From positions 20,131-84,130 of the forward strand of contig NZ_JOIJ01000018.1 in the NCBI RefSeq assembly GCF_000719975.1: DNA of 64,000 nucleotides, given 5' to 3'. Below, in pieces: positions 4,596-43,360 of the stretch. Numbering within the stretch: position 1 is the first letter of the stretch; each line of letters starts with the position of its first letter. The position numbers and the translations under genes were made by a program. The notes beneath the pieces are model-generated. The model was not told the DNA's origin. It did no database searches and saw only the letters and a program-made list of their open reading frames with translations. Source of the DNA: Prauserella rugosa. GTDB lineage: Bacteria; Actinomycetota; Actinomycetes; Mycobacteriales; Pseudonocardiaceae.

Positions 4596-4603
4596 ACCAC
4601 GGT

Positions 4604-5806: not shown

Positions 5807-5823
5807 GCCTCCATGGTGTCCAA

Positions 5824-5835
5824 CCAACTAGTTGG
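5824..5835. promoter_or_regulatory. Palindromic operator candidate 1 (TetR/MFS)
   Basis: CCAACTAGTTGG is a perfect 12-bp palindrome in the 61-bp divergent spacer between the MFS gene and the TetR gene. It is the kind of short inverted repeat bound by TetR dimers. Its core CCAAC/GTTGG is shared with the palindrome 17 bp away. Confidence 0.7.
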
Positions 5836-5839
5836 ATTT

Positions 5840-5853
5840 CAACCGGCCGGTTG
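5840..5853. promoter_or_regulatory. Palindromic operator candidate 2 (TetR/MFS)
   Basis: CAACCGGCCGGTTG is a perfect 14-bp palindrome centred 17 bp from the first operator candidate. Two related palindromes spaced like this suit cooperative binding of two TetR dimers that silence both divergent promoters. Confidence 0.7.
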
Positions 5854-5867
5854 GCCACCTGGTAGAC

Positions 5868-6470
5868 ATGGACGGCATGAGCAGCACCCGCCAACGACTC
5901 CTCGATGCCGCCCGCGACGAGTTCGCCGCACACGGGATCGCCGGCGCGCGCGTCGACGCCATCGCGGCACGCGCAGGCGTCAACAAAGAGCGGATCTACG
6001 GCTACTTCGGCAGCAAGGAGAAGCTGTTCGACGCCGTGATCACCGAGGCGAAGGCCGAGCACGCCAGGGGTATCGGACTGCCCGAGGGCGACCTGGCCGA
6101 GTACGTCGGCAGGCTCTACGACTACCACCGCGAGCACCCGCTGCTGCTCCGGCTGCTGCTGTGGGAGTCACTGCACTACGACGACCGGCCCGTGCCGGAC
6201 GCCGACCGCCGCGCGCAGGGCTACGACGACAAGGTCGCCGCGCTCGCCGAGGCACTCGGTACCGACGTGGACCGGGAGACCGCCGCCACCCTGTTCACAT
6301 TGCTCGGCCTCGCCGCCTGGCCCCACACGCTCCCCCAACTCGCCGGCTTCCTCGTACCCACAGGAAGTGACGCAGGAGACGGCAGGGCCCGTGACGACGA
6401 GGAGCACCACGCGATCCTCCGCGCCCACACGGTCGCCTTCGCCCGCCGCGCGCTCAGCGGCCGAGGGTGA
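5868..6470 (+). CDS. TetR family transcriptional regulator
   Basis: About 200 residues. The N-terminal helix-turn-helix is typical: TRQRLLDAARDEFAAHGIAG followed by VDAIAARAGVNKERIYGYFGSKEKLFDAV (residues ~6-57). The C-terminal ligand-binding domain is variable, as expected. ATG 5868 fits best; a frame start at 5832 would lie inside the operators, and ATG 5877 is also possible. It most likely represses itself and the divergent MFS gene through the two palindromes between them. Confidence 0.9.
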   Translation: MDGMSSTRQRLLDAARDEFAAHGIAGARVDAIAARAGVNKERIYGYFGSKEKLFDAVITEAKAEHARGIGLPEGDLAEYVGRLYDYHREHPLLLRLLLWESLHYDDRPVPDADRRAQGYDDKVAALAEALGTDVDRETAATLFTLLGLAAWPHTLPQLAGFLVPTGSDAGDGRARDDEEHHAILRAHTVAFARRALSGRG

Positions 6471-6532
6471 CGCCGAGCGCAGGCCGGCGTCCCCCGCTGG
6501 GTGTCAGAGCTGCGGGAGTCAGGCTGCGGGGG

Positions 6533-7396
6533 TCAGAGCTGCCGGCGCGCCATGTTCTCCAGGCGGCGGATGCGGTCCTCGATCGGCGGGTGACTCGAGA
6601 ACATCCGCGACATGCGCTCGCCGGGCCGGAACGGGTTCGCGATCATCAGGTGCGACTGCGACACGACCTTGGGGTCCGGGGCCAGCGGAGCGGAGCTGGT
6701 GCCCCGTTCGAGCTTGCGCAGCGCCGACGCCAGCGCCAGCGGGTCGCCCGTGAGCTCGGCGCCGGACTGGTCGGCCTGATACTCGCGCGACCTGCTCACG
6801 CTCATCTTGATGATGCCGGCCGCGACCGGCCCGAGCAGCGCCAACAGGATCATCGCGATCGGGTTGCCGCCGCCCTCACGGTTGCCGCCGAACATGCCCG
6901 CGAACATCGCCATGTTGGCCAGGAAGCTCACCACGCTGGCCAGCGCGCCCGCGACCGACGAGATGAGGATGTCGCGGTTGTAGACGTGCGCCAGCTCGTG
7001 ACCGAGGACAGCCCGCAGCTCGCGCTCGTCGAGGATCTCCAGGATCCCCGTGGTGCAGCACACCGCGGCGTTGCGCGGATTGCGCCCGGTGGCGAACGCG
7101 TTGGGTGCCCTGGTCGGGCTGACGTACAACCGGGGCATGGGCTGACGCGCCGACGTCGCCAGCTCCCGCACGATGCGGTACATCGCGGGCTGCTGCGCCT
7201 GCGACACGGGCTGGGCCCGCATGGCACGCAACGCCAGTTTGTCGGAGTTGAAGTAGGCGTAGCCGTTCATCGCGAGCGCGATCAGCAGGCCGATGATCAG
7301 GGCGCCCCTGCCGAACAGGCCACTGATCCCGATGATGAGCGCACTCATCAGCCCCAGCAGCAGCGCTGTCTTGAGACCGTTGTGGTGCTTGTGCAC
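6533..7396 (-). CDS. htpX: HtpX family membrane zinc metalloprotease
   Basis: A 287-residue integral membrane peptidase of family M48B, involved in quality control of membrane proteins. Two hydrophobic segments open the protein (residues ~10-45), the zinc site HELAH is at 133-137, further hydrophobic segments follow at ~145-190, and the third ligand motif [10 protein letters not shown] follows at ~205. GMF-GGN in the loop is common in actinobacterial HtpX. In M. tuberculosis htpX sits next to grcC1 and menJ; here those genes are in the same window but separated. A Shine-Dalgarno-like GGAGGGTGAG precedes the start. Confidence 0.95.
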
Positions 7397-7510
7397 CAGC
7401 TCACCCTCCTCCCGCCTCGGGATCCGAAATCGGCTTGCACCCGGGCCAACGCTCAGGGCCCGGCCGAAGTTCCTGCGTAGCGCCGTGCGAGTCTACTTCG
7501 GACGTTCGAG

Positions 7511-7536
7511 GTGGGCGTGTAGCACACCACACCCAC
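7511..7536. promoter_or_regulatory. Imperfect inverted repeat in the htpX/metal-transporter divergent region
   Basis: GTGGGCGTGT (7511-7520) and CCACACCCAC (7527-7536) are inverted repeats with eight of ten positions matching. They lie in the ~200-bp spacer between divergent htpX and the binding-protein gene. It could be a metalloregulator site; it is not a clear match to a Zur, DtxR or MntR box known to me. Confidence 0.35.
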
Positions 7537-7594
7537 GCCCGGTTTCGCAGCGGCGTAGAGTAGAGTTCGTCGCACCGAAACTTCGGGGGTGGCC

Positions 7595-8581
7595 ATGGAA
7601 ATCGCGGGCGCCGAGCCCACGCGCGCCGAGCGTCGCCGACGCGCCAGGCGCCGCGATCGGCGTGCGCTCGTCGCCCTCGGTGTGGTGTTCGTCCTGGCGA
7701 TCTCGAGCGCCGTCGGCTACGCGCTCCAACCGGTGACGTCGGACAACGCGAAGCTGCGCCTGGTGACCACGACGACGTTCCTCGACGACACGGTCTCGCG
7801 CATCGGCGGCGACGACGTCGACACCGTCCGGCTCATGGGGCCCGGCGTCGATCCGCACCTGTACCAGGCCAGGGCCGGTGATCTGCGGGAGATGCGACGG
7901 GCCGACTCGGTCGTGGCCGTCGGGTTGTACCTGGAGGGTGCGCTGGAGCAGACCCTCACCGACATCGCGCGCACGAAGCCGGTGCTGTTCGCCGGTGAGG
8001 CCGTGCCGCACGACCGGCTGCTGCGGCCCGCCGCGGGTTCGGCACCCGAGGAGGAGTTCGACCCGCACATCTGGCACGACCCGCACCGCTGGGTACACGT
8101 CGTCGATGCCGTCACCCAGCATCTCGCCGCGCTGGATCCCGCCCACGCCGACGACTACCGGCGCCGCGGCGCCGCGTACCGCGGCGAGGTGCTGCGCGCC
8201 GCCGACGACGTCCAGGCGGTGATCGACCGCATCCCCGAACGCAGACGCACCCTGGTGACCTCGCACGACGCGTTCCGCTACTTCGGCGACGCGTTCGGGC
8301 TGGAGGTCGTGGCGATCCAGGGGATGTCGACCCAGCAGGAGGCGACGACGGCGGACGTCTCCCGCGTGGCCGAGCTGCTGGCACGCGAGCACGTGCCCGC
8401 CGTGTTCCTGGAGACGAGCGTGTCGCCACAGACGGTCGAGTCGATGCTGGCCGCGGCGCGGCAGCGGGGCGGCGACGTGCGGGTCGGCGGGGAGCTGTAC
8501 TCCGATTCGACCGGTTCCGACGGCAGTTATGTCGGAATGCTGCGCGCCAACGCGGCGGTGCTCGAGGAGGGACTGGGATGA
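7595..8581 (+). CDS. Metal ABC transporter substrate-binding protein (TroA/ZnuA type)
   Basis: About 328 residues. An Arg-rich N-terminus precedes one hydrophobic segment (ALVALGVVFVLAISSAVGYAL), so it is membrane-anchored or exported; no lipobox Cys is seen. The cluster A-I metal ligands are visible: DPHLYQ, the pair FDPHIWHDP, the Glu in QGMSTQQEA, and the Asp in YSDS. It lacks the long His-rich loop of many zinc-binding proteins, which favours manganese or iron, though zinc is possible. GTG 7589 is an alternative start. It is the first gene of a four-gene operon; its stop overlaps the ATPase start (ATGA). Confidence 0.9.
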   Translation: MEIAGAEPTRAERRRRARRRDRRALVALGVVFVLAISSAVGYALQPVTSDNAKLRLVTTTTFLDDTVSRIGGDDVDTVRLMGPGVDPHLYQARAGDLREMRRADSVVAVGLYLEGALEQTLTDIARTKPVLFAGEAVPHDRLLRPAAGSAPEEEFDPHIWHDPHRWVHVVDAVTQHLAALDPAHADDYRRRGAAYRGEVLRAADDVQAVIDRIPERRRTLVTSHDAFRYFGDAFGLEVVAIQGMSTQQEATTADVSRVAELLAREHVPAVFLETSVSPQTVESMLAAARQRGGDVRVGGELYSDSTGSDGSYVGMLRANAAVLEEGLG

Positions 8582-9432
8582 CCGACGACGCACTCTTCTC
8601 CGCGGAGGAGGCCGAAGACACCGACGACGCACGTTCTCCCGCGGAGGAGGCCGAAAACACCGACGACGCACGTTCTCCCGCTGAGGAGGCCGATGCCGGC
8701 ACTCGGGCGGAGGCGGCGCTGCGGTTGGAGGGGGTGAGCGCCTCCTACGGTGGCCGTCCGGTGTTGACGGGCGTGGATGTCACGATTCCGGCGGGCGTGC
8801 TGAGCGCGGTGGTGGGCCCGAACGGTGCGGGCAAGTCGACGTTGGTCAAAGCCGCGCTGGGGCTGGTGCCGTCGGTGCGGGGCAGGGTCCGCTGGCTGGG
8901 TGAGCCGTTGCGACGGGTGCGCCGGCGGGTGGCGTACGTGCCGCAGCAGGACAGCGTCGCGAAGGATTTCCCGATCACGGCCGTGCAGGTCGTGGAGATG
9001 GGGCGGTATCCGCATCGGGGTTGGCTGCGCAGGTTGACGCGCGAGGACGACGAGGTGGTCGCGGGTGCGATGGAGCAGGTGGGGGTCGCGGATCTGGCCG
9101 ACCGGCCGATCGACGAGCTCTCGGGTGGTCAGCGTCAGCGGGTGTTCCTGGCACGGGCGTTGGCCCAACGTGCAGATCTGATCGTGCTGGACGAGCCGTT
9201 CACGGCCGTCGACGCGCGCACCGAGGCGATGCTGTTGGAGATCCTCACCGGCCTCTGCCGCGGCGGTGCGTCGGTGATCGCGGTGCACCACGATCTACGG
9301 GACGTGCTCGAGCATTTCGATCACGCCGTGCTCATGGCGGGCACGGTCGTGGCCGCGGGTGCGCCGGACGAGGTCCTCACCACCGAGCATCTCGAACGCG
9401 CCTACGGCATGGCTCCGCTGGCGGTGCGATGA
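8578..9432 (+). CDS. Metal ABC transporter ATP-binding protein
   Basis: A 284-residue ATPase that powers the metal importer. Walker A GPNGAGKST is at ~80-88, the signature LSGGQRQR at 181-188, Walker B LIVLDEP at 201-207, and the switch His in VHHD follows. Family members usually begin near residue 45 here; the first ~40 residues are an extra acidic tail made of a 13-residue repeat (EEAEDTDDARSPA-like). The start overlaps the binding-protein stop and the stop overlaps the first permease start, indicating translational coupling. Confidence 0.95.
   Translation: MTDDALFSAEEAEDTDDARSPAEEAENTDDARSPAEEADAGTRAEAALRLEGVSASYGGRPVLTGVDVTIPAGVLSAVVGPNGAGKSTLVKAALGLVPSVRGRVRWLGEPLRRVRRRVAYVPQQDSVAKDFPITAVQVVEMGRYPHRGWLRRLTREDDEVVAGAMEQVGVADLADRPIDELSGGQRQRVFLARALAQRADLIVLDEPFTAVDARTEAMLLEILTGLCRGGASVIAVHHDLRDVLEHFDHAVLMAGTVVAAGAPDEVLTTEHLERAYGMAPLAVR
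8590..8692 (+). repeat. 39-bp tandem repeat (2.6 copies) inside the ATPase gene
   Basis: Copies start at 8590, 8629 and 8668 (the last partial). Each begins GCACKYTCTCC and carries GAGGAGGCCG and ACACCGACGAC. The unit is 13 codons long, so copies add without a frameshift. Similar 39-bp units occur at 34239-34316 and 30065-30103. Confidence 0.85.
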
Positions 9433-10325
9433 CGGGCGTGCTCGGAGGACTGCTCGACGCGCTGCCACTGTCCTATGCGGACGCCGTGGTGGTGGTCGGC
9501 ACGGCGGTGGTCGGCTTCGTCGCGGGACTGCTCGGCCCGTTGGCGGTGCTGCGGCAGCGCAGCATGTTCGGCGATGCGATGAGCCACGGCACGCTGGCGG
9601 GTGTCGCCGTGGCCTTCCTGGTCACCGGGGCGAAGGTGCCCGAGCTGTTGCTGCTGGGCGCCGCGGTGTCGGCGGCCGTCGCGGCGTTCGCGATGATCGC
9701 GCTCGAGCGCACGGGACGGCTGCGTTCGGACGCGGCCATCGGGGTTGTGCTTTCGGTGTCGTTGACGTTGGGCATCGTGCTGCTGACCGGGATCTCCGGC
9801 TCGGGCAACGCCAGCCAGGCCGGCCTGGACGAGTACCTGCTGGGCCAGACCGCGGGCATGGTGGAGCGCGACATCGTGGTGGCGCTGGCACTGGCGAGCG
9901 TCGCGGTCGTGGCGGTCGGGCTGGGGTTCCGTTTGTTGCGCTCGGCGACGTTCGACCCGGGGTTCACCGCGGTCGCGGGGGTCCGCACGTGGGTGGTGGA
10001 CGCGGCGAGCACGGGATTGCTGGCGCTGGCCGTCGTGCTGGGCGTACGGACGGTGGGCGCGATCCTGATGGTCGCCCTGCTGGTGGCACCGGTGGTCGCG
10101 GCGCGGCAGGTGACGTCCACGTTGGCGGTGTTGATGCCACTGTCCGGTCTCGTGGGGGCGGCCAGCGGGGCGGTCGGCGGTCTCGTGGCAGGCCGCGCCG
10201 AGCTGCCAGCCGGTCCGGTGATCGTGCTGCTGGCGACCGGACTCGCGGTGCTGTCGGTCGTGTTCGCGCCGCGGCGGGGTGTCGTGGCGAAGCTGGCGAG
10301 GGGGCGCGCCCGTGTCTCCCGATGA
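9429..10325 (+). CDS. Metal ABC transporter permease (ZnuB/TroC family), first
   Basis: A 298-residue permease with about 8-9 hydrophobic segments. The conserved early motif GLLGPLAVLRQRSMFGDAMSHG (residues ~32-53) and the later TVGAILMVALLVAPVVAAR are family hallmarks. The start ATG 9429 overlaps the ATPase stop. It probably pairs with the next gene as a heterodimer, as in TroCD/MntCD systems, rather than the homodimer usual for ZnuB. Confidence 0.93.
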   Translation: MTGVLGGLLDALPLSYADAVVVVGTAVVGFVAGLLGPLAVLRQRSMFGDAMSHGTLAGVAVAFLVTGAKVPELLLLGAAVSAAVAAFAMIALERTGRLRSDAAIGVVLSVSLTLGIVLLTGISGSGNASQAGLDEYLLGQTAGMVERDIVVALALASVAVVAVGLGFRLLRSATFDPGFTAVAGVRTWVVDAASTGLLALAVVLGVRTVGAILMVALLVAPVVAARQVTSTLAVLMPLSGLVGAASGAVGGLVAGRAELPAGPVIVLLATGLAVLSVVFAPRRGVVAKLARGRARVSR

Positions 10326-11178
10326 CGTGATGATCGTCGTGATCGCCGGCCTGCTGTCGACGTCGTGCGCGGTGCTCGGCGGATTCCTCGTGCTGCGCGG
10401 CCAGGCGCTGCTGCCGGACGCCGTCAGCCACGCGGTCCTGCCCGGCATTGTGCTGATCTTCCTGCTCACCGGGGAGCGCGCGACACTGTGGACGGTCGTC
10501 GGGGCAACGGCGTTCGGCGTGCTGTGCGTACTCGGATCGGACTGGCTGCGGCGCACCGGCGTCGTCGAATCCGACGCCGCGTTGGCGCTCGTGTTCCCCG
10601 CGTTGTTCTCGTTGGGAATCCTCGGGATCAGCAGATTCGCCTCGGGGGCGCACATCGATCTGGACTCGGCGATCTACGGCGATCTGACGTTCGCCCCGCT
10701 GCGGACCGTGTCGCTGTTCGGGGCAGACGTGCCGCAGTCGCTGGTGGTGACCGGCCTGGCGACCGTCGCCGTCGTGGCGCTCGTGGTCGTGCTGTGGCGG
10801 CCGTTGCAGGCGGCTGCGTTCGACCCGGCGTTCGCGGAGTTGGCGGGTCTACGGGGCAGGCTGATCGGCCAGGTGCTGCTGGTCGCGGTGGCGGGGCTGG
10901 CCGTCGTGGCGTTCGACAGTGTCGGGGCGATCCTGGTGATCACGTTCTTCGTGGTGCCCGCGTCGACGGCACGGCTGCTCACCGCGCGCCTTGGCACGAT
11001 GCTGGTCGTGGCTGCGTTGTGCGGGTGGGTCGCGTCGATCGCCGGGCACACGGTCGCCGTGTCGGCCGACACGTCCATCCCCGGCACGATCGGCCTGGCC
11101 AGCGGCGCGCTGTTCGTGCTCGCCCTCCTGTTCGCACCCCGCCGAGGCCTCCTCACCCGCCGCCGCGCCACCCCCTAG
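10312..11178 (+). CDS. Metal ABC transporter permease (TroD/ZnuB family), second
   Basis: A 288-residue paralogue of the preceding permease: VLRGQALLPDAVSHAVLPGI (~24-43) and SVGAILVITFFVVPASTARL are the matching motifs, with about 8-9 hydrophobic segments. GTG 10312 overlaps the previous gene by 14 bp and gives the expected N-terminus (VSPDDVMIVVIAG). The two-permease arrangement supports a Mn/Fe (Tro/Mnt/Sit) system, but zinc is not excluded. A 21-bp repeat array begins right after the stop. Confidence 0.92.
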   Translation: MSPDDVMIVVIAGLLSTSCAVLGGFLVLRGQALLPDAVSHAVLPGIVLIFLLTGERATLWTVVGATAFGVLCVLGSDWLRRTGVVESDAALALVFPALFSLGILGISRFASGAHIDLDSAIYGDLTFAPLRTVSLFGADVPQSLVVTGLATVAVVALVVVLWRPLQAAAFDPAFAELAGLRGRLIGQVLLVAVAGLAVVAFDSVGAILVITFFVVPASTARLLTARLGTMLVVAALCGWVASIAGHTVAVSADTSIPGTIGLASGALFVLALLFAPRRGLLTRRRATP

Positions 11179-11180
11179 CA

Positions 11181-11359
11181 CCCCGTGTTGCACCTCCAGG
11201 GGCCCGTGTTGCGGATCTGGGGGCGCGTGTCGTGGATTCGGGGGCTTGTGTCGCGGACTCAGGGGCGCGTGTCGCACCGCGAGGGAGCCCGTGTTGCGTG
11301 CTCGGGAACGCGTGTTGCGGATTCGGGAGCCCGTGTTGTGACCCCGGGACCCCCGTTGA
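11181..11359 (+). repeat. 21-bp tandem repeat array, about 8 copies
   Basis: Degenerate copies of a ~21-22-bp unit of the form CCCGTGTTGCGGATTCGGGAG run from just after the permease stop to just before the VOC gene. GTGTTG/GTGTCG is the most conserved core. The same unit recurs at 11839-11900 and 63769-63893 (inverted) and at 54540-54602 inside ccsB. Confidence 0.85.
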
Positions 11360-11366
11360 CGGCGAG

Positions 11367-11765
11367 ATGTCCTTCGTGGACAGTGCGCGTATGTTGCACA
11401 TCGGAACGGTGGTCATGGGGGCCGCCGACGTCCGGCGAGCGGCCACGTTCTGGGCGGCCGCGCTCGACTACGTACCTCGCGACGGCGCTCTCAACGACGA
11501 CTTCGTAGTGCTCGTGCCGCACCGGGGACACGGCCCCGGCGTGGCGATCGACTCGAGTGAGTCTCCGGTGCAACAACATCCTCGCGTCCACCTCGACCTC
11601 TACGCCGCCGACGCACAGGACCAGGAAGCCGAAGTCGCCCGGCTCGTGTCCCTGGGTGCTACGCGGGTCGACTGGGACCTCTACCCCGCCGACCCGGACT
11701 TCGTGGTGCTCGCCGACACCGAGGGCAACCGCTTCTGCGTCATCGACACGTCGCACGGCGGTTAG
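11367..11765 (+). CDS. VOC (glyoxalase-like) superfamily protein
   Basis: A 132-residue protein of the vicinal-oxygen-chelate fold. It starts with the beta-alpha unit HIGTVVMGAADVRRAATFWAAAL, contains HLDLYAADAQDQEAEVARLVSLGATRV in the middle, and ends DFVVLADTEGNRFCVID, the classic glyoxalase-like C-terminal strand with a Glu metal-ligand position. Length matches single-module family members. ATG 11367 or ATG 11391 may be the start. The substrate is unknown. It is flanked on both sides by 21-bp repeat arrays and looks monocistronic. Confidence 0.85.
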   Translation: MSFVDSARMLHIGTVVMGAADVRRAATFWAAALDYVPRDGALNDDFVVLVPHRGHGPGVAIDSSESPVQQHPRVHLDLYAADAQDQEAEVARLVSLGATRVDWDLYPADPDFVVLADTEGNRFCVIDTSHGG

Positions 11766-11838
11766 CTCCGGCACCGCCTACCTCGCGCTCACACGTCGCA
11801 CCGCGGCGCGGGGACGCAGCGCCGTAGCGTCCCCCGAT

Positions 11839-11900
11839 CCGCAACACGGCCCCCGGCCGACGCAACACGCGCCCCCGAAAGCGCAACACGCGTTCCCGAA
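11839..11900 (-). repeat. 21-bp tandem repeat array, 3 copies (inverted)
   Basis: Three units of CGCAACACGCGTTCCCGAAG type, the reverse complement of the array at 11181-11359. It ends 5 bp before the stop codon of the dimethylargininase gene and sits between two convergent genes. Confidence 0.85.
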
Positions 11901-11904
11901 GTGG

Positions 11905-12759
11905 TTACTTTCGGATCTCCAGGGTGCAGCACTTCGGGCCGCCGCCTGCCTTGCGGAGTTCCGAGATGTCGACGAACCGCACCTCGTAACCACGCTCGGC
12001 GATCCGGCCTGCCAGTCCGGTCGACTCGGTCTCGACGGGCAGGACGACGTGCCTGCCGTCGGAGACGCCGTTCAGCCCGAAGCACTCGGCGTCGGCCGCG
12101 TTGGCGATCACCGCGTCGGGGAACAGCCGCCGCAGCACGCGTTGCGACCCCGGCGAGAACGCCTCCGGGTAGTAGGCGACCTGCGCGCGCATCGCCTCCT
12201 GCTCGGGCTGCAGCACGAACAGGGCCGTGTCGAGGTGGTAGTAGCGCTCGTCGACCAGGTGCAGCGACACCACGGGCACGCCCAGCGTCTCCTGCGCCTC
12301 CGCGTGCGCACCGGGGTCGGTGCGGAAACCCGTGCCCGCGAGCAGCAGCCCGCCCGTCCAGGCGAAGTCGCCCTCGGCCTCGTTGATCTGACGCGGCATG
12401 GTCACGTCGCGGAATCCGTGCTCGACGAACCAGCGCCGGAAGTGCTCGGCCTCGGCGGCACGCTGCGGGGCACGGAACCGCGACCCCAGCACCCTGCCGT
12501 CGACCACGGTGCCCGAGTTGGCCGCGAACACCATGTCCGGCAGTCCCGGCTGCGGCGGTACCTCGTCGACCGTGTGGCCGAGTTCGCGGTAGAGATCGCG
12601 CAACGTCGTCCACTGCCGCATGGCCAGCTCGACGTCGACGGGACGGCTGGGGTCCATCCACGGGTTGATCGAGTACTCCACGGCGAAATGCCGCGGCGGG
12701 CACATCAGGTAGTGGCGGGGCGTGGGGATCCGTACGGGCAGCGCGTGGGTGTCCGTCAT
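11905..12759 (-). CDS. ddaH: Dimethylargininase / arginine deiminase-fold amidinohydrolase
   Basis: A 284-residue amidinotransferase-superfamily enzyme. It has the N-terminal MCPPRHFAVEYSINPWMDPSR, the Glu/Asp pair in EGDFAW (~120), the catalytic His in YYHLDTAL (~172), and the nucleophile Cys in KCCTLEIRK at the C-terminus. Members hydrolyse N-omega-methylarginines to citrulline plus methylamine, or act on arginine-like substrates. It is divergent from an Lrp/AsnC regulator. In mycobacteria ddaH lies beside rocD (ornithine aminotransferase), but no rocD is present here. Confidence 0.88.
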   Translation of the reverse strand: MTDTHALPVRIPTPRHYLMCPPRHFAVEYSINPWMDPSRPVDVELAMRQWTTLRDLYRELGHTVDEVPPQPGLPDMVFAANSGTVVDGRVLGSRFRAPQRAAEAEHFRRWFVEHGFRDVTMPRQINEAEGDFAWTGGLLLAGTGFRTDPGAHAEAQETLGVPVVSLHLVDERYYHLDTALFVLQPEQEAMRAQVAYYPEAFSPGSQRVLRRLFPDAVIANAADAECFGLNGVSDGRHVVLPVETESTGLAGRIAERGYEVRFVDISELRKAGGGPKCCTLEIRK

Positions 12760-13432: not shown

Positions 13433-15379
13433 ATGAGCACGAGTGCGAACGGCAGCGCCACCGACGGGGCAGGCGCGCTGTCGGCGACCCGTCCGACGGA
13501 GGTCAACCAGCTCGACCGCGTGGTCATCCGATTCGCCGGCGACTCCGGTGACGGCATGCAGCTGACCGGCGACCGGTTCACGTCGGAAGCGGCCGCATTC
13601 GGGAACGATCTGGCGACTCTGCCGAACTTCCCCGCCGAGATCCGCGCACCTCAGGGCACCATCCCCGGCGTCTCCAGCTTCCAGGTGCACTTCGCCGACT
13701 ACGACATCCTCACTCCCGGCGACCGCCCCGACGTCCTCGTGGCGATGAACCCGGCTGCGTTGAAGGCCAACGTCGGTGACGTGCCCCAGGGCGGCACGAT
13801 CATCGTCAACACCGACGAGTTCGGCAAGCGCAACCTGACGAAGGTCGGCTACGAGTCGAACCCGCTCGAGGACGACTCGCTGTCGGCCTTCGAGGTCCAC
13901 GAGGTCGCCATGTCGACCCTGACGCAGGGCGCGCTGGAGAACACCGGCCTCGGCAAGAAGGACGCCGAGCGCTGCAAGAACATGTTCGCGCTGGGTCTGC
14001 TGTCGTGGATGTACCACCGGCCGACCGAGGGCACCGAGCAGTTCCTGCGCGAGAAGTTCGCGAAGAAGCCGGAGATCGCCGACGCGAACATCCTGGCGTT
14101 CCGCGCGGGCTGGTACTACGGCGAGACGACCGAGGCCTTCGGCACGACGTTCGAGGTCGCCCCCGCGAAGCTGCCCGCGGGCACCTACCGCCAGATCACG
14201 GGCAACACCGCGTTGGCCTACGGCATCGTGGCGGCGGGACAGCAGGCGAAGCTGCCGGTACTGCTGGGCACCTACCCGATCACCCCAGCCTCGGACGTGC
14301 TGCACGAACTGTCGAAGCACAAGAACTTCGGCATCACCACGTTCCAGGCCGAGGACGAGATCGCCGGTGTCGGTGCCGCACTCGGCGCCAGCTACGGCGG
14401 CGCGCTCGGGGTGACCTCGACGTCCGGCCCGGGTATCGCGCTGAAGGCCGAGACGATCGGGCTCGGCGTGATGACCGAGCTGCCGCTCGTGGTGATCGAC
14501 GTGCAGCGCGGCGGCCCCTCGACGGGTCTGCCGACGAAGACCGAGCAGGCCGACCTGTTGCAGGCCTACTTCGGCCGCAACAGTGAGTCGCCGGTGCCGA
14601 TCGTCGCCCCGGCCACGCCCGCCGACTGCTTCGACATCGCGCTGGAGGCCACGCGGATCGCGCTGAAGTACCGCACGCCGGTGCTGCTGCTGTCCGACGG
14701 CGCGGTCGCCAACGGTTCGGAGCCGTGGCTCATCCCGGACGTGTCGACGCTGCCCGACCTGTCCGTGGAGTTCGCGTCCGAGCCGAACGCTCCCGACGGT
14801 TCCGGTGAGCACTGGCCGTACGTGCGTGATCCGGAGACGCTCGCGCGTGAGTGGGCGATTCCCGGCACGCCGGGTCTGCAGCACCGCATCGGTGGTCTGG
14901 AGAAGGCCGACGGCAAGGGCAACATCTCCTACGACCCGGACAACCACGACCACATGGTCCGGTTGCGCCAGGCGAAGATCGACGGCATCGACGTGCCCGA
15001 CATCGAGGTCGACGATCCTGCCCCGAGCGGCCTCGGGGGAACCGCCAGCGGCGGCAAGGCCCGCGTGCTGGTGCTGGGCTGGGGTTCGACGTACGGCCCG
15101 ATCGGCGCCGCCGCACGCCGGGTGCGCAAGAAGGGCATGGCGGTCGCGCAGGCCCACCTGCGTCACCTCAACCCGCTGCCCGCGAACCTCGGCGAGGTGC
15201 TGGCCTCGTACGACCGCGTGGTCGTGCCGGAGATGAACCTGGGCCAGCTGGCGATGCTGCTGCGTGCCAAGTACCTGACCGACGTCCAGTCCTACACCAA
15301 GGTCGCCGGACTGCCCTTCAAGGCCGAGGAGCTCGAGGGCGTCTTCACCGACATCATCAGGGAGGTCACGTCAGAATGA
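13433..15379 (+). CDS. korA: 2-oxoglutarate:ferredoxin oxidoreductase subunit alpha
   Basis: The 648-residue KorA carries the gamma domain (FAGDSGDGMQLTGDRF, residues ~33-48) fused before the pyrimidine-binding alpha domain (TYPITPASDVLHELSK at ~279). With KorB it oxidatively decarboxylates 2-oxoglutarate to succinyl-CoA, passing electrons to ferredoxin, as an alternative TCA step known in mycobacteria and other actinomycetes. Length matches the mycobacterial enzyme (~650). ATG 13433 follows GAGAGAGG. The stop overlaps a 13-codon frame that links it to korB. Confidence 0.95.
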   Translation: MSTSANGSATDGAGALSATRPTEVNQLDRVVIRFAGDSGDGMQLTGDRFTSEAAAFGNDLATLPNFPAEIRAPQGTIPGVSSFQVHFADYDILTPGDRPDVLVAMNPAALKANVGDVPQGGTIIVNTDEFGKRNLTKVGYESNPLEDDSLSAFEVHEVAMSTLTQGALENTGLGKKDAERCKNMFALGLLSWMYHRPTEGTEQFLREKFAKKPEIADANILAFRAGWYYGETTEAFGTTFEVAPAKLPAGTYRQITGNTALAYGIVAAGQQAKLPVLLGTYPITPASDVLHELSKHKNFGITTFQAEDEIAGVGAALGASYGGALGVTSTSGPGIALKAETIGLGVMTELPLVVIDVQRGGPSTGLPTKTEQADLLQAYFGRNSESPVPIVAPATPADCFDIALEATRIALKYRTPVLLLSDGAVANGSEPWLIPDVSTLPDLSVEFASEPNAPDGSGEHWPYVRDPETLAREWAIPGTPGLQHRIGGLEKADGKGNISYDPDNHDHMVRLRQAKIDGIDVPDIEVDDPAPSGLGGTASGGKARVLVLGWGSTYGPIGAAARRVRKKGMAVAQAHLRHLNPLPANLGEVLASYDRVVVPEMNLGQLAMLLRAKYLTDVQSYTKVAGLPFKAEELEGVFTDIIREVTSE

Positions 15380-15417: not shown

Positions 15418-16478
15418 CAGCCACCGATCTGGGCCTGCCCACCATGGGCGGTCTCGACCTGGTCCCCACGACCGACGAGCCGCAGAAGGCCAAGGAGTAC
15501 AAGTCCGACCAGGAAGTGCGCTGGTGCCCGGGCTGCGGCGACTACGTCGTGCTGAACACGATCCAGTCGTTCCTGCCGACGTTGGGCCTCAAGCGCGAGA
15601 ACATCGTGTTCATCTCGGGTATCGGCTGCTCGAGCCGGTTCCCGTACTACATGAACACCTACGGCATGCACTCGATCCACGGCCGCGCGCCGTCGATCGC
15701 GACGGGGCTGGCGACGACGCGTCCGGACCTGTCGGTGTGGGTGGTCACCGGTGACGGCGACGCGCTGTCCATCGGCGGCAACCACCTGATCCACGCGTTG
15801 CGGCGGAACGTGAACCTGAAGATCCTGCTGTTCAACAACCGGATCTACGGCCTGACGAAGGGTCAGTACTCGCCGACGTCGGAGCCGGGCAAGGTCACCA
15901 AGTCGACCCCGATGGGGTCGCTGGACACGCCGTTCAACCCGGTGTCGCTGGCGCTGGGTGCGGAGGCGACGTTCGTGGGCAGGGCGTTGGACTCGGACAA
16001 GAAGGGTCTGACGGAGGTGCTCACGGCGGCGGCCCAGCACCGGGGCAGCGCGGTCGTGGAGATCTACCAGAACTGCCCGATCTTCAACGACGGCGCGTTC
16101 GACGTGCTGAAGGACTCCGACGAGGCCGCGCAGCGGATCATTCCGCTGACGCCGGGTGAGCCGATCCGGTTCGGCCCCGAGGGCGAGCTCGGCGTGACGT
16201 CGACCGGCTACGGCGGGTTCGAGGTCGGCAAGGTGGCCGACATCGGTGAGGACAACCTGGTGGTGCACGATCCGTCCATCGAGGACACGGCGTACGGGTT
16301 CGCGTTGTCGCGCATCGGCGACCAGAACCTGTCGCTCACCCCGACCGGGATCTTCCGCCAGGTCGCCAGGCCGACCTACGACGACCAGGCACGTGCCCAG
16401 GTCGAGCAGGCCCAGCAGGCCAACCCGGGTGATCTGCAGGCCCTGCTGACCGGCAAGGACACCTGGACGGTCGAGTAA
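15414..16478 (+). CDS. korB: 2-oxoglutarate:ferredoxin oxidoreductase subunit beta
   Basis: The 354-residue thiamine-diphosphate subunit. CPGCG (38-42) supplies cluster-ligand Cys residues, GIGCSSRFPYY adds a third, and the TPP/Mg motif VVTGDGDALSIGGNH through LLFNNRIYGLTKGQ is intact. It is the electron-transfer half of KorAB. Translation is probably coupled to korA through the intervening mini-ORF. It ends 22 bp before a large palindrome that faces the convergent sunset-domain gene. Confidence 0.96.
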   Translation: MTATDLGLPTMGGLDLVPTTDEPQKAKEYKSDQEVRWCPGCGDYVVLNTIQSFLPTLGLKRENIVFISGIGCSSRFPYYMNTYGMHSIHGRAPSIATGLATTRPDLSVWVVTGDGDALSIGGNHLIHALRRNVNLKILLFNNRIYGLTKGQYSPTSEPGKVTKSTPMGSLDTPFNPVSLALGAEATFVGRALDSDKKGLTEVLTAAAQHRGSAVVEIYQNCPIFNDGAFDVLKDSDEAAQRIIPLTPGEPIRFGPEGELGVTSTGYGGFEVGKVADIGEDNLVVHDPSIEDTAYGFALSRIGDQNLSLTPTGIFRQVARPTYDDQARAQVEQAQQANPGDLQALLTGKDTWTVE

Positions 16479-16500
16479 CCCCGGCCTCGGGTTCAAAGCT

Positions 16501-16547
16501 CCCAAGGGCCCCATAGTTGCGTTGAACGCAACCATGGGGCCCTTGGG
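16501..16547. repeat. Dispersed palindrome copy 1 (bidirectional terminator-like)
   Basis: Arms of 22 nt (16501-16522 and 16526-16547) starting CCCAAGGGCCCCATAG pair with a single mismatch around the loop TGA. The same element occurs at 46564-46610 and 49234-49286. It lies between the convergent ends of korB and the sunset-domain gene. Confidence 0.9.
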
Positions 16548-16551
16548 CGCA

Positions 16552-18564
16552 TTAGCCGAGGGGGCGGAAGCCGACGCGTTCGGCGTCGGCCGGGCTGCGG
16601 AACCACACCTCGGCGACCATGCGCGGGTACTGCGGCGACGCCTCGGTGACGTACCGCAATGCCGTCACGCTGGCCTTCACGGTGAACTCCGGCGACGGGC
16701 TGGCCCCGCCGGGCAGCGGCATCGCCGATCCGGGGCCGAACGGTCCGGCCTGCTGGTCCTCGCCCTCGTCGGCCGGTGCGGTGGCCTGCGGCTCGTCGCC
16801 ACGGACGGCAGCGTGCTCCTCGGGGACCTCGTCCTCGTCGAGTGATCCGTGCCTGCCGTTCGTCGGCACCTGCCCGGCCGGGGTGACGAACTGCGTCATC
16901 TCCGACCGCGCGCCGGTCGGCTGGTCGGCTGCCGGGGACGCCTCGCCCTGAGCCGGTTCCGCCGTCGGACCGCCACCGCCCTGTGCGGACTCGGCGGGCT
17001 CGAACAGCGACCCGCTCTGCACGTCCGGGGCCGGTTCCCTGCGGGTGATGGCCCGCATCGACGGCTGGATGGGCTTCGGCGCGTCGAATCCGCCCGGCGG
17101 ACGCTGTCGCGGCGTCCGCTTGGGCAGGACGTTCGTCGACTCGACGGCGTCCTCGTCGGGTCCGTCCGCGGGTCCGCCGCCGAACGCATAGGCGGGCGGG
17201 TCGGACGGCAGTGCGCCCTGCGAGTCCTGGCCCGTTTGTGCCGGGTCGGCCGGAGCCGTGCCGGGGGCCGGGTCGGTGCGCTCGCCGGATTCGGCGGGCT
17301 CGTCGCTGTCGTCGTCGACGGCTCCGGGTTCGAACAGGCTGCCGGGCCGCTTCTGCGGAGGGCCGTCGCGGCGCGTCTCCTGCTCGGGCTCCGGCTCCGA
17401 CTGAGGAGCCGGCGAGGTCTGGGGCGCAGGCGACGTCGCGGACGGCCCGCCTGCTCCGATCGCGTCGGCGCCACCCACCGGAAGTTCGGTGGTGGCCTCG
17501 AACGAGGTCACCGGGGTGAACGGGGTGCCCATGTCGAGTGCCGATGCGGCCGGACGTCCCGCCTGCCCCGCGGATTCGGCGTCGGACTCGGCGCCGCTGT
17601 CGGCCGCGGAACGGTCGTCGTGGCCCGGCTGCGCGTCGGGACCGATCAGCTGGGTGGTTTCGGTGCCCTCCGGCTGCGGCGGGCGGCTGCGCATCTCGTC
17701 GGGGTCGAGCACCGACGAGACGGGTTCGATCGGTTCGGCGTCGCCGATGGCGGGGACGTACCGGGTCTCCTCGGCGCCACCGGCGTCGTACCCGGCGTCG
17801 TCGTAGTAGTCCCCGGCGCCGCGCCCCTGGTCGCCGTAGTCCCCGTCGCCGTAGCCCTGGTCGCCGTAGCCCTGGTCGCCGCAGTCCCGGTCGGCGGCGT
17901 CGAGGGCGGCGTCGATGTCCTCGTCGGCCTCGCGGTCGGTGTCGTCGGAACGGCCGTCCGCCCGGTCGCCGTAGGGGCGGTCCTCGCGGTCGTCGAACAC
18001 CCCGCGTTCGTCGACGTCAAGAGCGTCCCGGTCGTCCCGGTCGTCGTACGCGTGCGCGCCGTACCCCTGCTTGTCCTCGGCACGGTCGTCGTAACCCCGG
18101 TCGTCGAACATGCTCCGCTCGCCGGGGACCTCGAGGTCCTCGGGCCGGTCGGCGAGGTCGAAGTCGTCGCGCTCCTCGCCGTGCGAGCCGTAGGAGTCGT
18201 AGGCACCGCGGCTCTCGCCGAGGCCGGCGAGGCTGTCCCGTTCGGGCCAGTCCGTTTCGGGCTCGTTCCGGTCGCCGGTGTCGGGGCCGCCGTAGGTCCC
18301 GGTCAGCGCGGACGCGCCGCCTGCGGCGAGCGCCTCGTCGGCGTCCCGGAAGGGGTCGTTGCGGCTCGCTCTGCCCGACATGGCGTCGCTGGCCCCGAGC
18401 GCGGGCTCGGAGATGCGGCGGAGATCGGCCTCACGGGCCGCGAGTCTCGCCTCGAGGTCCCTGACCTGCTTCCTTGCCGGTCGAACCAGAAAGACCCAGG
18501 CCAGGAAGGCGCCCAGCACGAAAGCGATCGCGCTGAACACCCAGACCTGCCCGAAAATGGACAT
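16552..18564 (-). CDS. Membrane-anchored, disordered protein with C-terminal sunset (ArfC-type) domain
   Basis: 670 residues in three parts. There is one N-terminal membrane segment (VWVFSAIAFVLGAFLAWVFLV, residues ~7-27) and a short coiled coil (RKQVRDLEARLAAREADLRR). A ~550-residue low-complexity linker rich in Asp, Glu, Gly, Pro follows, with DNA-level 15-bp repeats (GYGDQ-type peptides near residues 225-250). The last ~50 residues (EFTVKASVTALRYVTEASPQ, then AEVWFRSPADAERVGFRPLG) match the sunset domain of mycobacterial ArfC channel accessory proteins as I recall it. The short C-terminal domain probably faces the cytoplasm or wall through a long tether. Function is unknown. Confidence 0.75.
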   Translation of the reverse strand: MSIFGQVWVFSAIAFVLGAFLAWVFLVRPARKQVRDLEARLAAREADLRRISEPALGASDAMSGRASRNDPFRDADEALAAGGASALTGTYGGPDTGDRNEPETDWPERDSLAGLGESRGAYDSYGSHGEERDDFDLADRPEDLEVPGERSMFDDRGYDDRAEDKQGYGAHAYDDRDDRDALDVDERGVFDDREDRPYGDRADGRSDDTDREADEDIDAALDAADRDCGDQGYGDQGYGDGDYGDQGRGAGDYYDDAGYDAGGAEETRYVPAIGDAEPIEPVSSVLDPDEMRSRPPQPEGTETTQLIGPDAQPGHDDRSAADSGAESDAESAGQAGRPAASALDMGTPFTPVTSFEATTELPVGGADAIGAGGPSATSPAPQTSPAPQSEPEPEQETRRDGPPQKRPGSLFEPGAVDDDSDEPAESGERTDPAPGTAPADPAQTGQDSQGALPSDPPAYAFGGGPADGPDEDAVESTNVLPKRTPRQRPPGGFDAPKPIQPSMRAITRREPAPDVQSGSLFEPAESAQGGGGPTAEPAQGEASPAADQPTGARSEMTQFVTPAGQVPTNGRHGSLDEDEVPEEHAAVRGDEPQATAPADEGEDQQAGPFGPGSAMPLPGGASPSPEFTVKASVTALRYVTEASPQYPRMVAEVWFRSPADAERVGFRPLG

Positions 18565-41088: not shown

Positions 41089-41919
41089 ATGACCCTCTCG
41101 TCCCGCATGCTGCGCCCGGTCGACCCCGGGCTGGTCTCCCAGGCGCTCGAGGTGGCAGGCCGCCTCGCGGGCGACGCCACCGACGTGATCACCGCGACCG
41201 CTGGGCGGGGCGCGCGCCCGACCACGAAGGAATCGCCGTTCGACTGGGTCACCGACACCGACCGCACCCTCGAACGGCACACCCGCCGCGTGCTGGCTGC
41301 CGAGTTCCCCGGCATCCCGGTCGTGGGTGAGGAGTACGGCGACGACAGCGGTGCCGAACACGCCGAGTACCGGTGGGTGGTCGACCCCGTGGACGGCACG
41401 GCCAACTACGTCGCAGGCATCCCGTGGTGCTCCTACAGCCTGGCGCTCGTCGACGCCGACGGGCCGGTGGTCAGCGTGGTCGCCGACCCGTACCGGGGGC
41501 AGGTCTACAGCGCGGGACGCGGGCGTGGGGCCCGCGCCAACGGGGCGCTCGTGCGGGTGCCGGAGTGCGCGGGGACGGCGGGCGCGATCGTGTGCACCGA
41601 ACTCACCGGCGGCGATGCCTGGCCCGGGATGGCGCGGTTCGTCGAACGAGCCGCCCGCGCCCACTCGGGCACGCGCATCCTCGGCTCGTCCGCGCTGGCG
41701 GTCACCCAGGTCGCGCTGGGGCACGCCGTGGCCGCGGTGCTCGACGGGTACCGGGAGTGGGACGTGGCCGGCGCGCTGGGGATCGCCACGGAGGCCGGCG
41801 CGGTCATCCTCGACCGGCGCGGCCGGCAGGCCACCCTGCCGCTCGACGGCATGCTCGTGGCCGCACCCACGGTCGCGGACGACGTCCTCGGCTGGTGGAC
41901 CGGCGCCCAGGAGGAGTAA
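41089..41919 (+). CDS. Inositol monophosphatase family protein
   Basis: 276 residues, Mg-dependent phosphatase of the IMPase/HisN group. Metal-site motifs are WVTDTD (53-58), GEEYG (80-84), DPVDGTANYVAGIPW (99-113) and WDVAGALGIATEAG (~224-237). Substrate is probably inositol phosphate or histidinol phosphate. ATG 41089 follows GGAGAGG. The 3' end (41892-41918) is duplicated at 42742-42768, where the same reading frame again encodes WTGVQEE and a stop; see the insertion finding. Confidence 0.92.
   Translation: MTLSSRMLRPVDPGLVSQALEVAGRLAGDATDVITATAGRGARPTTKESPFDWVTDTDRTLERHTRRVLAAEFPGIPVVGEEYGDDSGAEHAEYRWVVDPVDGTANYVAGIPWCSYSLALVDADGPVVSVVADPYRGQVYSAGRGRGARANGALVRVPECAGTAGAIVCTELTGGDAWPGMARFVERAARAHSGTRILGSSALAVTQVALGHAVAAVLDGYREWDVAGALGIATEAGAVILDRRGRQATLPLDGMLVAAPTVADDVLGWWTGAQEE
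41892..41918 (+). repeat. Direct repeat, left copy (3' end of inositol phosphatase gene)
   Basis: Begins CTGGTGGACCGGCGCCCAGG and ends GAGGAGTA. It matches 42742-42768 at 25 of 27 positions; the copies are exactly 850 bp apart. Confidence 0.88.
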
Positions 41920-41966
41920 CGCCGACCTCTCGCTCGCCCTCACCGTCAAGGTGGCACGATTCCGCA

Positions 41967-42713
41967 ATGGACGGAGCCGGGTCACCGCCGACCGCGTTGG
42001 TATACGTCGACGGTTTCAACCTCTACAGGCAGCTGCTGGAGGGCCAGCCTCAATACAAATGGCTGGATCTCACCGCGCTGGCTGATCAGGTCTTGCCCGA
42101 CTATCGCGTGATCGGGGTCCGCTACTTCACCGCAAAAATCAAACAGCTCCCTGGCAAAGACGCGAGCGCCCCGCAGCGCCAGCAGGCGTACCTGCGTGCG
42201 CTCGCCATCTTGGAGCGCGTTGAGGTGTTCCTCGGAAAGTTCCGGGTGGACGCCCGGATCATGCCCAAGCACCCCATCGAAGTGGATTCTCACGGGAAGC
42301 CGGTCCGCGTCAAGGTGAAGAAGACAGAGGAGAAGGGCTCGGACGTTGCGCTGGCCAGTCGACTTCTGGTCGACGCGATGCAACGCAAGGCTGACATCTA
42401 CGTCGTGTGCACCAACGACTCGGATCTCGTCATGCCGCTTCACCTCGTCCAGGCTGAGCTCGGCGGCGACATCGGATTGCTATCGCCTGTGCAATGCAAG
42501 CGAGCAAGTAACGAACTGAAGCAGACCAACCCCCGCTGGCACCGGCAGATCACACATGCGGATCTGCAGCGTAGCCAACTCCCCGACGTTCTGACCGACA
42601 AGTACGGGACCGTCCACCGGCCACAGAAATGGGCCACAAATTCCGAAGGCCCCGCCGAAGCGGGGCCTTCTAACCAGCGGCCGAAGCCCACTGGGGGTGT
42701 GCCCTCAGGGTAG
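41967..42713 (+). CDS. NYN domain (PIN-like) predicted RNase
   Basis: 248 residues. The acidic NYN active-site residues are visible: D15 in VYVDGFNLYRQ, D126 in EKGSDVALASRLL, and N150-D-S-D in CTNDSDLVMPLHL. NYN proteins are metal-dependent nucleases of the PIN-like fold; some act on RNA, others in defence or competition, and the role here is unknown. The GC content looks clearly lower than in neighbours and codon use is less biased (AAA, ATA, CTA-type codons appear). It lies alone between two copies of the inositol-phosphatase 3' end, so it was probably acquired recently. Confidence 0.85.
   Translation: MDGAGSPPTALVYVDGFNLYRQLLEGQPQYKWLDLTALADQVLPDYRVIGVRYFTAKIKQLPGKDASAPQRQQAYLRALAILERVEVFLGKFRVDARIMPKHPIEVDSHGKPVRVKVKKTEEKGSDVALASRLLVDAMQRKADIYVVCTNDSDLVMPLHLVQAELGGDIGLLSPVQCKRASNELKQTNPRWHRQITHADLQRSQLPDVLTDKYGTVHRPQKWATNSEGPAEAGPSNQRPKPTGGVPSG
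42646..42671 (+). terminator. Hairpin inside the 3' end of the NYN gene
   Basis: GAAGGCCCCGC (42646-42656), CGAA, GCGGGGCCTTC (42661-42671) forms a perfect 11-bp stem. It falls ~40 bp before the annotated stop. It looks like a transcription terminator that now lies in coding sequence, or the true end of the gene's ancestor was earlier. Confidence 0.55.
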
Positions 42714-42741
42714 CGCACAGTGCCGCCCCTGTCAGGTTCGA

Positions 42742-42768
42742 CTGATGGACCGGCGTCCAGGAGGAGTA
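42742..42768 (+). repeat. Direct repeat, right copy (restored 3' end of inositol phosphatase gene)
   Basis: CTGATGGACCGGCGTCCAGG followed by AGGAGTA; in frame it would encode WTGVQEE-stop, the same as the phosphatase tail WTGAQEE-stop. It ends 8 bp before the stop of the convergent DUF3592 gene. Confidence 0.88.
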
Positions 42769-42775
42769 GGCGCCC

Positions 42776-43360
42776 TCAGGCGGCGGTGCGGTGTCGGCGG
42801 CGGCGGGGCACGATGCGGCCGCCTGCCTTCCTGCGCAGGAACCACAGCAGCGGGCCGGCGACGAGCCACGTGAACAGTGCGGTGGTGCTCGTCGGCAACA
42901 GGGTCAGCACCCACGTGCGCCCGGCGATCTTCACCAGGTCCGGCTCCGTGGTGTCGTACTCGACGCGCACCAGCTGTCCCTGGCTGAGACCGTCCGGGTA
43001 CAGCACGCCCAGGTCCGGGTTGTGCGACTCGCCGTCCGGGGTGTCGTAGCGGATCAGTGTCCGGTCCCAGGTCACCTGTTCGACCTGGGCGACGGCCGTG
43101 CCACGGTTCTTGGCGATCTCCCGGTCGTTGACCCACGCGCCGCCCGCGAGCACGAAGCATTCGAGGGTGATCAGCGCCGCCAGGCCCAGCACGATCCACG
43201 CGCCGATCCGCCAACGCCGCTCCGTGCGCCCGGCCTGATCGGCCGTGCCGGCGGCACCCGCCTGGCCGGCGTCCGAGTTCGACGCAGGGTCGGTCGTCGC
43301 GTCGGTCGCCGTGTCGCTGTCCGGCGGCGACTCGGGTGCCGGCTGGGACGAGGAGGTCAC
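42776..43360 (-). CDS. DUF3592-like membrane protein
   Basis: 194 residues. A polar, Asp/Thr-rich N-terminus (~50 residues) is followed by one membrane helix (WIVLGLAALITLECFVLAGGAW), an extracytoplasmic ~75-residue beta domain (IRYDTPDGESHNPDLGVLYPDGLSQGQLVRVEYD, DUF3592 type), a second helix (ALFTWLVAGPLLWFL), and a basic tail. A conserved membrane protein lies next to menD in mycobacteria too (Rv0556). The function is unknown. Confidence 0.75.
   Translation of the reverse strand: MTSSSQPAPESPPDSDTATDATTDPASNSDAGQAGAAGTADQAGRTERRWRIGAWIVLGLAALITLECFVLAGGAWVNDREIAKNRGTAVAQVEQVTWDRTLIRYDTPDGESHNPDLGVLYPDGLSQGQLVRVEYDTTEPDLVKIAGRTWVLTLLPTSTTALFTWLVAGPLLWFLRRKAGGRIVPRRRRHRTAA

Follow-up and report, generated by a model that had tools for sequence, protein, structure and literature searches.

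In type III toxin-antitoxin systems (ToxIN, CptIN, TenpIN), whose features are taken here from part of PMC5086642, RNA repeats stand upstream in the toxin operon and the toxin has the ToxN fold. In C. difficile the abortive-infection protein AbiF is neutralised by the RNA RCd22, as described in an excerpt of PMC12373285. The characterised NYN ribonuclease of B. fragilis, which is associated with clustered regularly interspaced short palindromic repeats (CRISPR), uses the aspartates D13, D118 and D143 (excerpt of PMC11346440). The NYN gene considered here belongs to a stretch of 64,000 nucleotides from Prauserella rugosa (contig NZ_JOIJ01000018.1, positions 20,131 to 84,130 of the forward strand; "the window" below), where it lies in a short insert at the 3' end of an inositol-phosphatase gene and overlaps a predicted convergent gene of a small structured RNA. 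The ribonuclease and its RNA partner probably, though by no means firmly, act like the type III and AbiF toxin-antitoxins and are carried by miniature or decayed integrative elements.

Integrative elements inserted at the 3' ends of genes or transfer RNA (tRNA) genes, including their integrase-less derivatives, have direct-repeat ends, keep the end of the target gene and are missing from an empty site in relatives. In the window, the end of the inositol-phosphatase gene is found twice as a 31-bp direct repeat (28/31 positions identical, start spacing 850 bp). The ungapped score of this repeat is 22, against a best of 16 and a mean of 9.0 in 300 block shuffles of both flanks. The shorter 27-bp ends described earlier (41892-41918 and 42742-42768, 25 matching positions) are located as reported and are part of this repeat.

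The site was compared in seven genomes of the genus, the window genome included, and both flanks are present in all of them. In one congener (G006), the matches to the suhB-side and far-side flanks, 87% and 86% identical to the window, overlap by 32 bases (G006:C3:67359-67390), which corresponds to a single repeat copy and no insert. In the other five congeners the matched flank blocks are separated by at most about 210 bp, and the NYN gene is absent from the site in all six congeners searched. An empty site with a single copy in G006, together with the absence of the NYN gene from 6/6 congeners, means that DNA was inserted at the 3' end of the Inositol_P gene (PF00459) in the line leading to the window genome, and that the end of this gene was duplicated. 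Direct-repeat ends matching a gene end and an empty site in a relative, the features of integrative elements, are both present here. The preliminary description had proposed the same event and had named the empty site as the check to make, a site filled with the NYN gene in all relatives being the opposite outcome; the comparison of congeners bears the proposal out. The single G006 copy is identical to the right repeat at 30/31 positions and to the left one at 29/31, which weakly fits the right copy being the old one.

The 819 bp between the repeats have a GC (guanine plus cytosine) content of 0.625. The NYN gene itself (0.620, against 0.701 for the window) is the lowest-GC gene of the window, in agreement with the low GC noticed before; only 0.24% of sliding 747-bp segments (n=1266) are as low, all of them over the NYN gene. 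This gene fills the insert, and no recombinase gene was found there when the open reading frames (ORFs) were checked against Pfam; the two other ORFs of at least 80 aa wholly inside it (153 and 92 aa, antisense) have no Pfam family. A recombinase acting in trans is possible, because 11 matches to PF00589 occur elsewhere in the window genome.

Repeats at gene or tRNA 3' ends are found in four unrelated genomes, i.e., that of the window, G106, G993 and G1117. In G106, an exact 23-bp repeat from the 3' end of a TetR-like gene (labelled by eye) occurs with copies 811 bp apart. In G993, the NYN gene and a DUF3800 gene (PF12686) are stacked as units of 837 and 1144 bp at the 3' end of a DEAD-box helicase gene, the end of which is repeated over 222 nt with 86% identity. 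In G1117, copies of a 49-bp repeat of a tRNA-Phe end lie 1971 bp apart and enclose a 78-aa Phage_integrase remnant. The search for the same 27-bp ends beside other NYN genes, suggested earlier, gave a different outcome: where such genes are flanked by repeats, the repeated end is that of the gene at the respective site. The 3' end of the same helicase gene is a hot spot in G1246, where it is followed by genes for helix-turn-helix, IrrE-like, AbiEi/AbiEii, NYN, DUF4143 ATPase and DUF3800-like proteins (L183, G1246:C138:17000-32000, positions 3806-12516), with partial helicase-end copies among these genes.

The simplest reading shared by these loci would be site-specific integration followed by loss of the integrase. 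It is plausible, as suggested before, that the insert moved passively and needed no integrase; the closest parallel, G1117, holds a tyrosine-recombinase remnant inside the repeats. Arrival would then proceed by integration of the tyrosine-recombinase type at the 3' end of a gene, which the incoming end restores while the second copy is left at the far side; the recombinase would have acted in trans or been lost. Alternatively, the flanking repeat could stem from homologous or illegitimate recombination with a related genome, which would suit an insert without a recombinase and relatives without repeats; the recurrence of repeats at gene or tRNA 3' ends in the four genomes, one of them with an integrase remnant, makes this origin improbable, though it deserves some weight beside site-specific integration.

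Several further loci show the surroundings of such genes. In L114 a DUF3800 gene (16353-17096) forms its own unit adjoining the NYN unit, and a repeated GAAACCCC... element, with copies 88% alike at 14334-14419 and 17099-17184, lies downstream; this element may be another structured RNA. In L205 (7140-8052) the NYN gene and the RNA stand directly behind tRNA-Thr, and no repeat of the tRNA end was found there. A Mycobacterium abscessus prophage (L202:3279-3993) carries an NYN gene with convergent RNA near its tyrosine integrase end. By eye, the flanks around position 5001 contain restriction-modification-like genes in L063 and L066 and an IS200-type transposase-like gene in L068.

The NYN product (248 aa) scores 26.4 bits against PF01936 (curated cut-off 24.2) and matches the 203-position PADLOC model HEC-09 (Hma-embedded candidate) over residues 11-222 with E=4.4e-35. 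PHROG 7929, whose function is not known, also matches the product, and NCBIfam gave no match. D15 and D153 are invariant among 48 aligned relatives, and D126 and D151 are conserved in at least 90% of them; many relatives end right after W222. A structure model built from 43 sequences reaches a predicted local distance difference test (pLDDT) score of 88.1, with low confidence at residues 226-244. The top five Foldseek matches in the PDB are all NYN structures (E 6e-8 to 1e-4; 2qip at 6e-8, 5yaa, 6fdl); the sequence-profile search of the PDB returned no chain at E<=1. The product is predicted to be an NYN-fold ribonuclease, its activity being equally a prediction, and the family matches uphold the earlier label of an RNase of a candidate-defence type. 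HEC-09 is a one-protein candidate defence model, with no RNA partner in its PADLOC table. Several HECs have been validated for defence, and HEC-09 is not among them in the relevant passage of PMC12988326; the anti-phage function of the NYN/HEC-09 gene is a hypothesis.

The occurrence of the gene appears sporadic. Close relatives (E<=1e-20) are present in the window genome alone among 397 of its order and in 13 of 396 genomes of the phylum, the window genome included; the wider NYN family exceeds 7000 scored proteins among the matches listed. NYN relatives were found in 441 of 72,556 plasmid records and in 3 of 50,697 phage records, all below 60% identity. Small enteric plasmids of 3.5-9 kb (L198-L201) carry HEC-09-like NYN genes; the RNA model matches 5' of NYN in L199 and has no match in L198, L200 and L201.

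The insert had been described as holding only the NYN gene, to which a convergent RNA gene of about 63 nt, overlapping the NYN 3' end and predicted to be transcribed, has to be added. A two-hairpin element behind the NYN core is common to loci whose proteins are 36-71% identical. On the strand opposite NYN, the element opens with the -35 and -10 boxes; some 12 bases further on comes hairpin 2, frequently capped by a UUCG loop, and a linker of 2-4 bases separates it from hairpin 1, after which a T-rich stretch follows in most loci. The window promoter is of the sigma70 type (CTGACA-17-TACCCT), and the start and end of the RNA (Table 1) are inferred from it and from the terminator.

The 23 loci of alignment A1 were selected by eye, as loci in which the structure could be seen after NYN. 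A1 does not include L087 (a near copy of L088), L071-L073, L075-L081, L090, L093 or the distant family loci L034-L061, which were met later by the models described below. The RNA folds computed were nested ones, which do not cover the pseudoknots of type III antitoxins. RNAalifold gave 13 consensus pairs on A1, 10 of them with double compensatory change. In hairpin 2, 87% of the cells pair and 7/9 pairs are changed on both sides; its covariation of 0.394 compares with 0.03-0.15 (at most 0.151) when the partner was slid, and none of 500 shuffles was as high. This per-pair control was confined to hairpin 2, since MAFFT shifted hairpin 1 by one base between groups of A1, and hairpin 1 was read per sequence. 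At two pairs of hairpin 2, U-G (11/23 loci) and G-U (7/23) are found in the named strand, and the RNA strand is thereby fixed because these pairs would read A-C on the other strand. In a test placed by alignment anchors, the sigma70-like promoter that scores best within 60 bases ahead of hairpin 2 ends 12-13 nt from this hairpin in 22/23 loci and 24 nt from it in L065. The Fisher p over the 23 loci is 0.76 on the other strand and 5e-15 on the RNA strand, the latter being too small since the loci, which were selected by structure, are related. Rfam gave no family at gathering score in eight related loci and only sub-threshold matches in the window and L114 (RsmY, 21.7 of 57 bits; istR, 21.7 and 22.9 of 45).

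The linkage of the RNA to NYN was examined with two covariance models. R1, built from A1 and searched over 296 genomes of the class, gave 12 matches in 11 genomes, of which 10 abut NYN and eight are A1 loci. R2, built from 37 sequences and searched over 200 genomes of the family, gave five matches, all beside NYN genes and four from the model-building set. Together these make 16 distinct matches, 11 of them model-building loci recovered by construction and five new. Among the new ones, G1027, G914:C62 and G133 abut NYN, G991 lies 44 bp from an NYN remnant, and G1099 (L214) is discussed below. The models are specific, since no other place in the searched genomes reached the threshold. When the 11 NYN matches of the class sample are taken as the starting point, the RNA stands beside 10 (eight of those in A1) and is missing from the fragmentary L090; no intact close NYN relative without the RNA was found in this sample. 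In further NYN-centred loci R2 gave 16 matches in 16 of 36 sources, 13 of them outside the model set. Fifteen lie within about 100 bp of NYN, and that of L049 is 180 bp from a truncated NYN alignment; 12/16 have E of 0.002-0.45, each weak alone.

The position of the RNA was counted at E<=0.001 with R1 or R2, each locus once. Twenty-seven loci have the RNA 3' of NYN and convergent with it, five have it 5' and on the NYN strand (L072, L076, L077, L080 and L199, a locus on a Serratia plasmid), and three have it 5' and divergent (L036, L040, G133). L199, L036 and L040 belong to the R2 set, and L036 and L199 also pass with R1. The 3' same-strand position was met in nine loci with weak E-values only (0.015-0.45). 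Because its position around NYN varies, the RNA appears to be a linked gene rather than a terminator, a 3' untranslated region or the end of a mobile element. Antisense pairing is unlikely as the shared mechanism, since the overlap with the NYN message is not constant.

The same data bear on a reading in which the hairpins are a bidirectional terminator between convergent genes and NYN, brought in with an acquired segment, is a candidate nuclease for defence that acts alone. In favour of this, the window has the terminator-like hairpin 1 between convergent genes, HEC-09 is a one-protein model, and compensatory changes occur in terminators too. This reading is nevertheless unlikely, since hairpin 2 has covariation of its own and a fixed strand, the promoter keeps its distance in 22/23 loci on one strand only, and the RNA stands 5' of NYN in the five same-strand loci as well as in the divergent L036 and G133.

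IS200/IS605-like elements make no target duplication, and integron cassettes are known by attC core sites and an integron integrase. The structure could represent the DNA end of such a non-autonomous transposon or cassette (IS200/605-like or integron-like), recognised as a folded single strand, with NYN as cargo. It adjoins the right end of the insert, and in L114 the genes for NYN and DUF3800 follow each other as stacked units whose ends are repeated. This possibility is nevertheless very improbable: the host gene end is duplicated over 31 bp, contrary to the behaviour of IS200/IS605, no like structure was seen at the left end of the insert, the side and strand on which the structure lies relative to NYN vary, and its G-U pairing suits RNA of one strand. 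The IS200/605-, integron- or omega-RNA-like reading of the hairpins was dropped on account of the varied side and strand around NYN and of the promoter, the comparison with integron cassettes being one made by eye.

The linked RNA gene also outlasts its neighbour. The RNA is intact beside an NYN gene in pieces (L064:1763-1861, 66.9 bits), beside a short NYN C-terminal fragment (L194:2169-2270, 36.9 bits), where just the last codons of NYN are left (L065:4749-4847, 81 bits) and, in L218, close to a remnant of NYN. The RNA at L193:2287-2386 has an intact NYN 358 bp off and no remnant of its own. In a small sample, intact RNA beside decayed NYN fits the remains expected of a toxin-antitoxin. The RNA could instead be an activator, guide or processing substrate of the nuclease in a ribonucleoprotein immune system. 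Stable linkage with free position would suit this role as well, and the CRISPR-associated NYN ribonuclease trims RNA (excerpt of PMC11346440). Intact RNA beside decayed NYN in four loci, again a small sample, is the opposite of what is expected of a mere cofactor, and such a role is rated less probable than not by a clear measure, without being negligible.

Two RNA copies accompany one NYN gene in L193 (2287-2386 and 2647-2746) and L194 (2169-2270 and 2423-2522). In two genomes of one genus (L214:1501-1593 and L218:1501-1592) the RNA occupies the same place between sbcC-like and proB-like genes, as labelled by eye; L218 has the NYN remnant and L214 none, and the RNA there is perhaps an orphan, retained antitoxin.

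The features of the locus are given in Table 1. The label DUF3592, previously given to the gene downstream of the insert, was not borne out, as this gene matches no Pfam family.

Table 1. Features at the insertion site; positions are those of the window
Feature	Position	Strand	Remarks
suhB-like inositol monophosphatase gene	41089..41919	+	PF00459, E=1.6e-47; insert lies at its 3' end
Left copy of the 31-bp direct repeat (suhB-like gene end)	41888..41918		one copy in G006
Inserted DNA between the repeats, 819 bp	41919..42737		absent in 6/6 congeners; GC 0.625
NYN ribonuclease gene (predicted), 248 aa	41967..42713	+	conserved core to W222 (base 42632); low-confidence tail over the RNA gene
Small structured RNA (predicted), about 63 nt	42638..42700	-	approximate ends, inferred from promoter and terminator
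Hairpin 2 (5' hairpin of the RNA), UUCG loop	42674..42694	-	covariation
Hairpin 1, terminator-like, UUCG loop, then GGAATTT	42645..42670	-	read per sequence
-10 box TACCCT of the RNA promoter	42707..42712	-	promoter scan; read 42712-42707
-35 box CTGACA of the RNA promoter	42730..42735	-	two bases inside the right repeat; read 42735-42730
Right copy of the 31-bp direct repeat	42738..42768		repeat comparison
Convergent neighbour gene	42776..43360	-	ORF list and Pfam search; no Pfam match

The preferred reading is that of a compact mobile two-gene module, consisting of an NYN-fold ribonuclease and a convergent two-hairpin RNA of about 63 nt with its own promoter and terminator. The RNA would bind the nuclease and hold it in check, as the RNA antitoxins of type III and AbiF-type systems do. 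On phage infection the RNA level would fall, the freed nuclease then cutting RNA. The insertion, the end duplication, the conservation of RNA structure and promoter, the adjoining position of RNA and NYN and the nuclease family were computed directly. A wider proposal, to be taken as tentative and somewhat doubtful, is that HEC-09-type NYN proteins and the two-hairpin RNA make up a toxin-antitoxin or immune module of protein and RNA that is undescribed and widely transferred; its RNA gene would have shifted position and strand several times, and the module would be mobile as a sub-kilobase cassette duplicating gene ends. No report of an NYN protein paired with a small RNA gene outside CRISPR was found among the matches listed from the open-licence literature.

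Several observations weigh against the module. Its toxicity, defence role and transcription are hypotheses, and the one paper found to use the name HEC-09 correlates it with phage susceptibility in Pseudomonas (excerpt of PMC12447246). The RNA is single-copy without repeats, unlike classic type III antitoxins. Beside the inflated Fisher p, single promoter p-values exceed 0.1 in 8/23 loci; beside the matches recovered by construction, one of the new RNA matches (L214) shows no NYN trace. R2 has no match at E<=1 in 20/36 of the further NYN loci, and the enteric plasmid loci L198, L200 and L201 show nothing better than E 1.2. As regards mobility, 7/8 contig relatives (L062-L069) have no flanking repeat longer than 17 bp, the flanking repeat of L065 is a second copy of the RNA, and the far flank of G106 is rearranged relative to its congeners.

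Candidate defence genes such as HEC-09 are now scored as single proteins. If the proposed pairing is true, tests in which the HEC-09 protein is cloned alone could miss or misjudge its function, and the NYN/PIN-like fold would be a new one among the few nucleases held by an RNA partner. With the empty site of the congener, the window provides a clean case in which such a module came as some 0.8 kb comprising only what is required: nuclease, RNA, promoter and gene-end repeats.

Among the known systems, HEC-09 shares its model with the NYN product over residues 11-222 and differs in being a one-protein candidate, whereas an RNA partner is present here. The CRISPR-associated ribonuclease of B. fragilis and the NYN domains of MARF1 and VPA0982 share the fold (2qip, 5yaa, 6fdl). 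The aspartate triad of the B. fragilis enzyme has its counterpart in D15, D126 and D151/D153. The link to a small RNA gene distinguishes the present locus from the B. fragilis one, and no CRISPR was seen beside NYN among the ORFs listed. DUF3800 genes reportedly occur with structured RNA motifs, according to a structured-RNA survey of 2017. They resemble the present case in having a single nuclease-like gene in small units, and in L114 a DUF3800 gene (PF12686) stands beside NYN; the protein is a different one, and no Rfam DUF3800 motif was matched here. With integrative elements the insert shares the direct-repeat ends, the kept gene end and the empty site, and it differs from them in having only 819 bp between the repeats and no recombinase inside.

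AbiF/RCd22 likewise pairs a mobile-element protein with a small structured RNA, which contains two motifs plus a terminator. Its protein is unrelated, its RNA lies upstream, and it is known by experiment, whereas the present pair is predicted. Like the type III systems, the module sets a small structured RNA that has a terminator next to a predicted endoribonuclease; the RNA stands immediately 5' of NYN, on its strand, in L072, L076, L077, L080 and L199. The differences are the NYN fold in place of the ToxN/type III toxin fold and, in the window, a single convergent RNA copy with its own promoter in place of RNA repeats upstream in the toxin operon. The module is not filed as type III because these two features, repeats in the leading operon position and the ToxN fold, fail; it may work like type III despite this.

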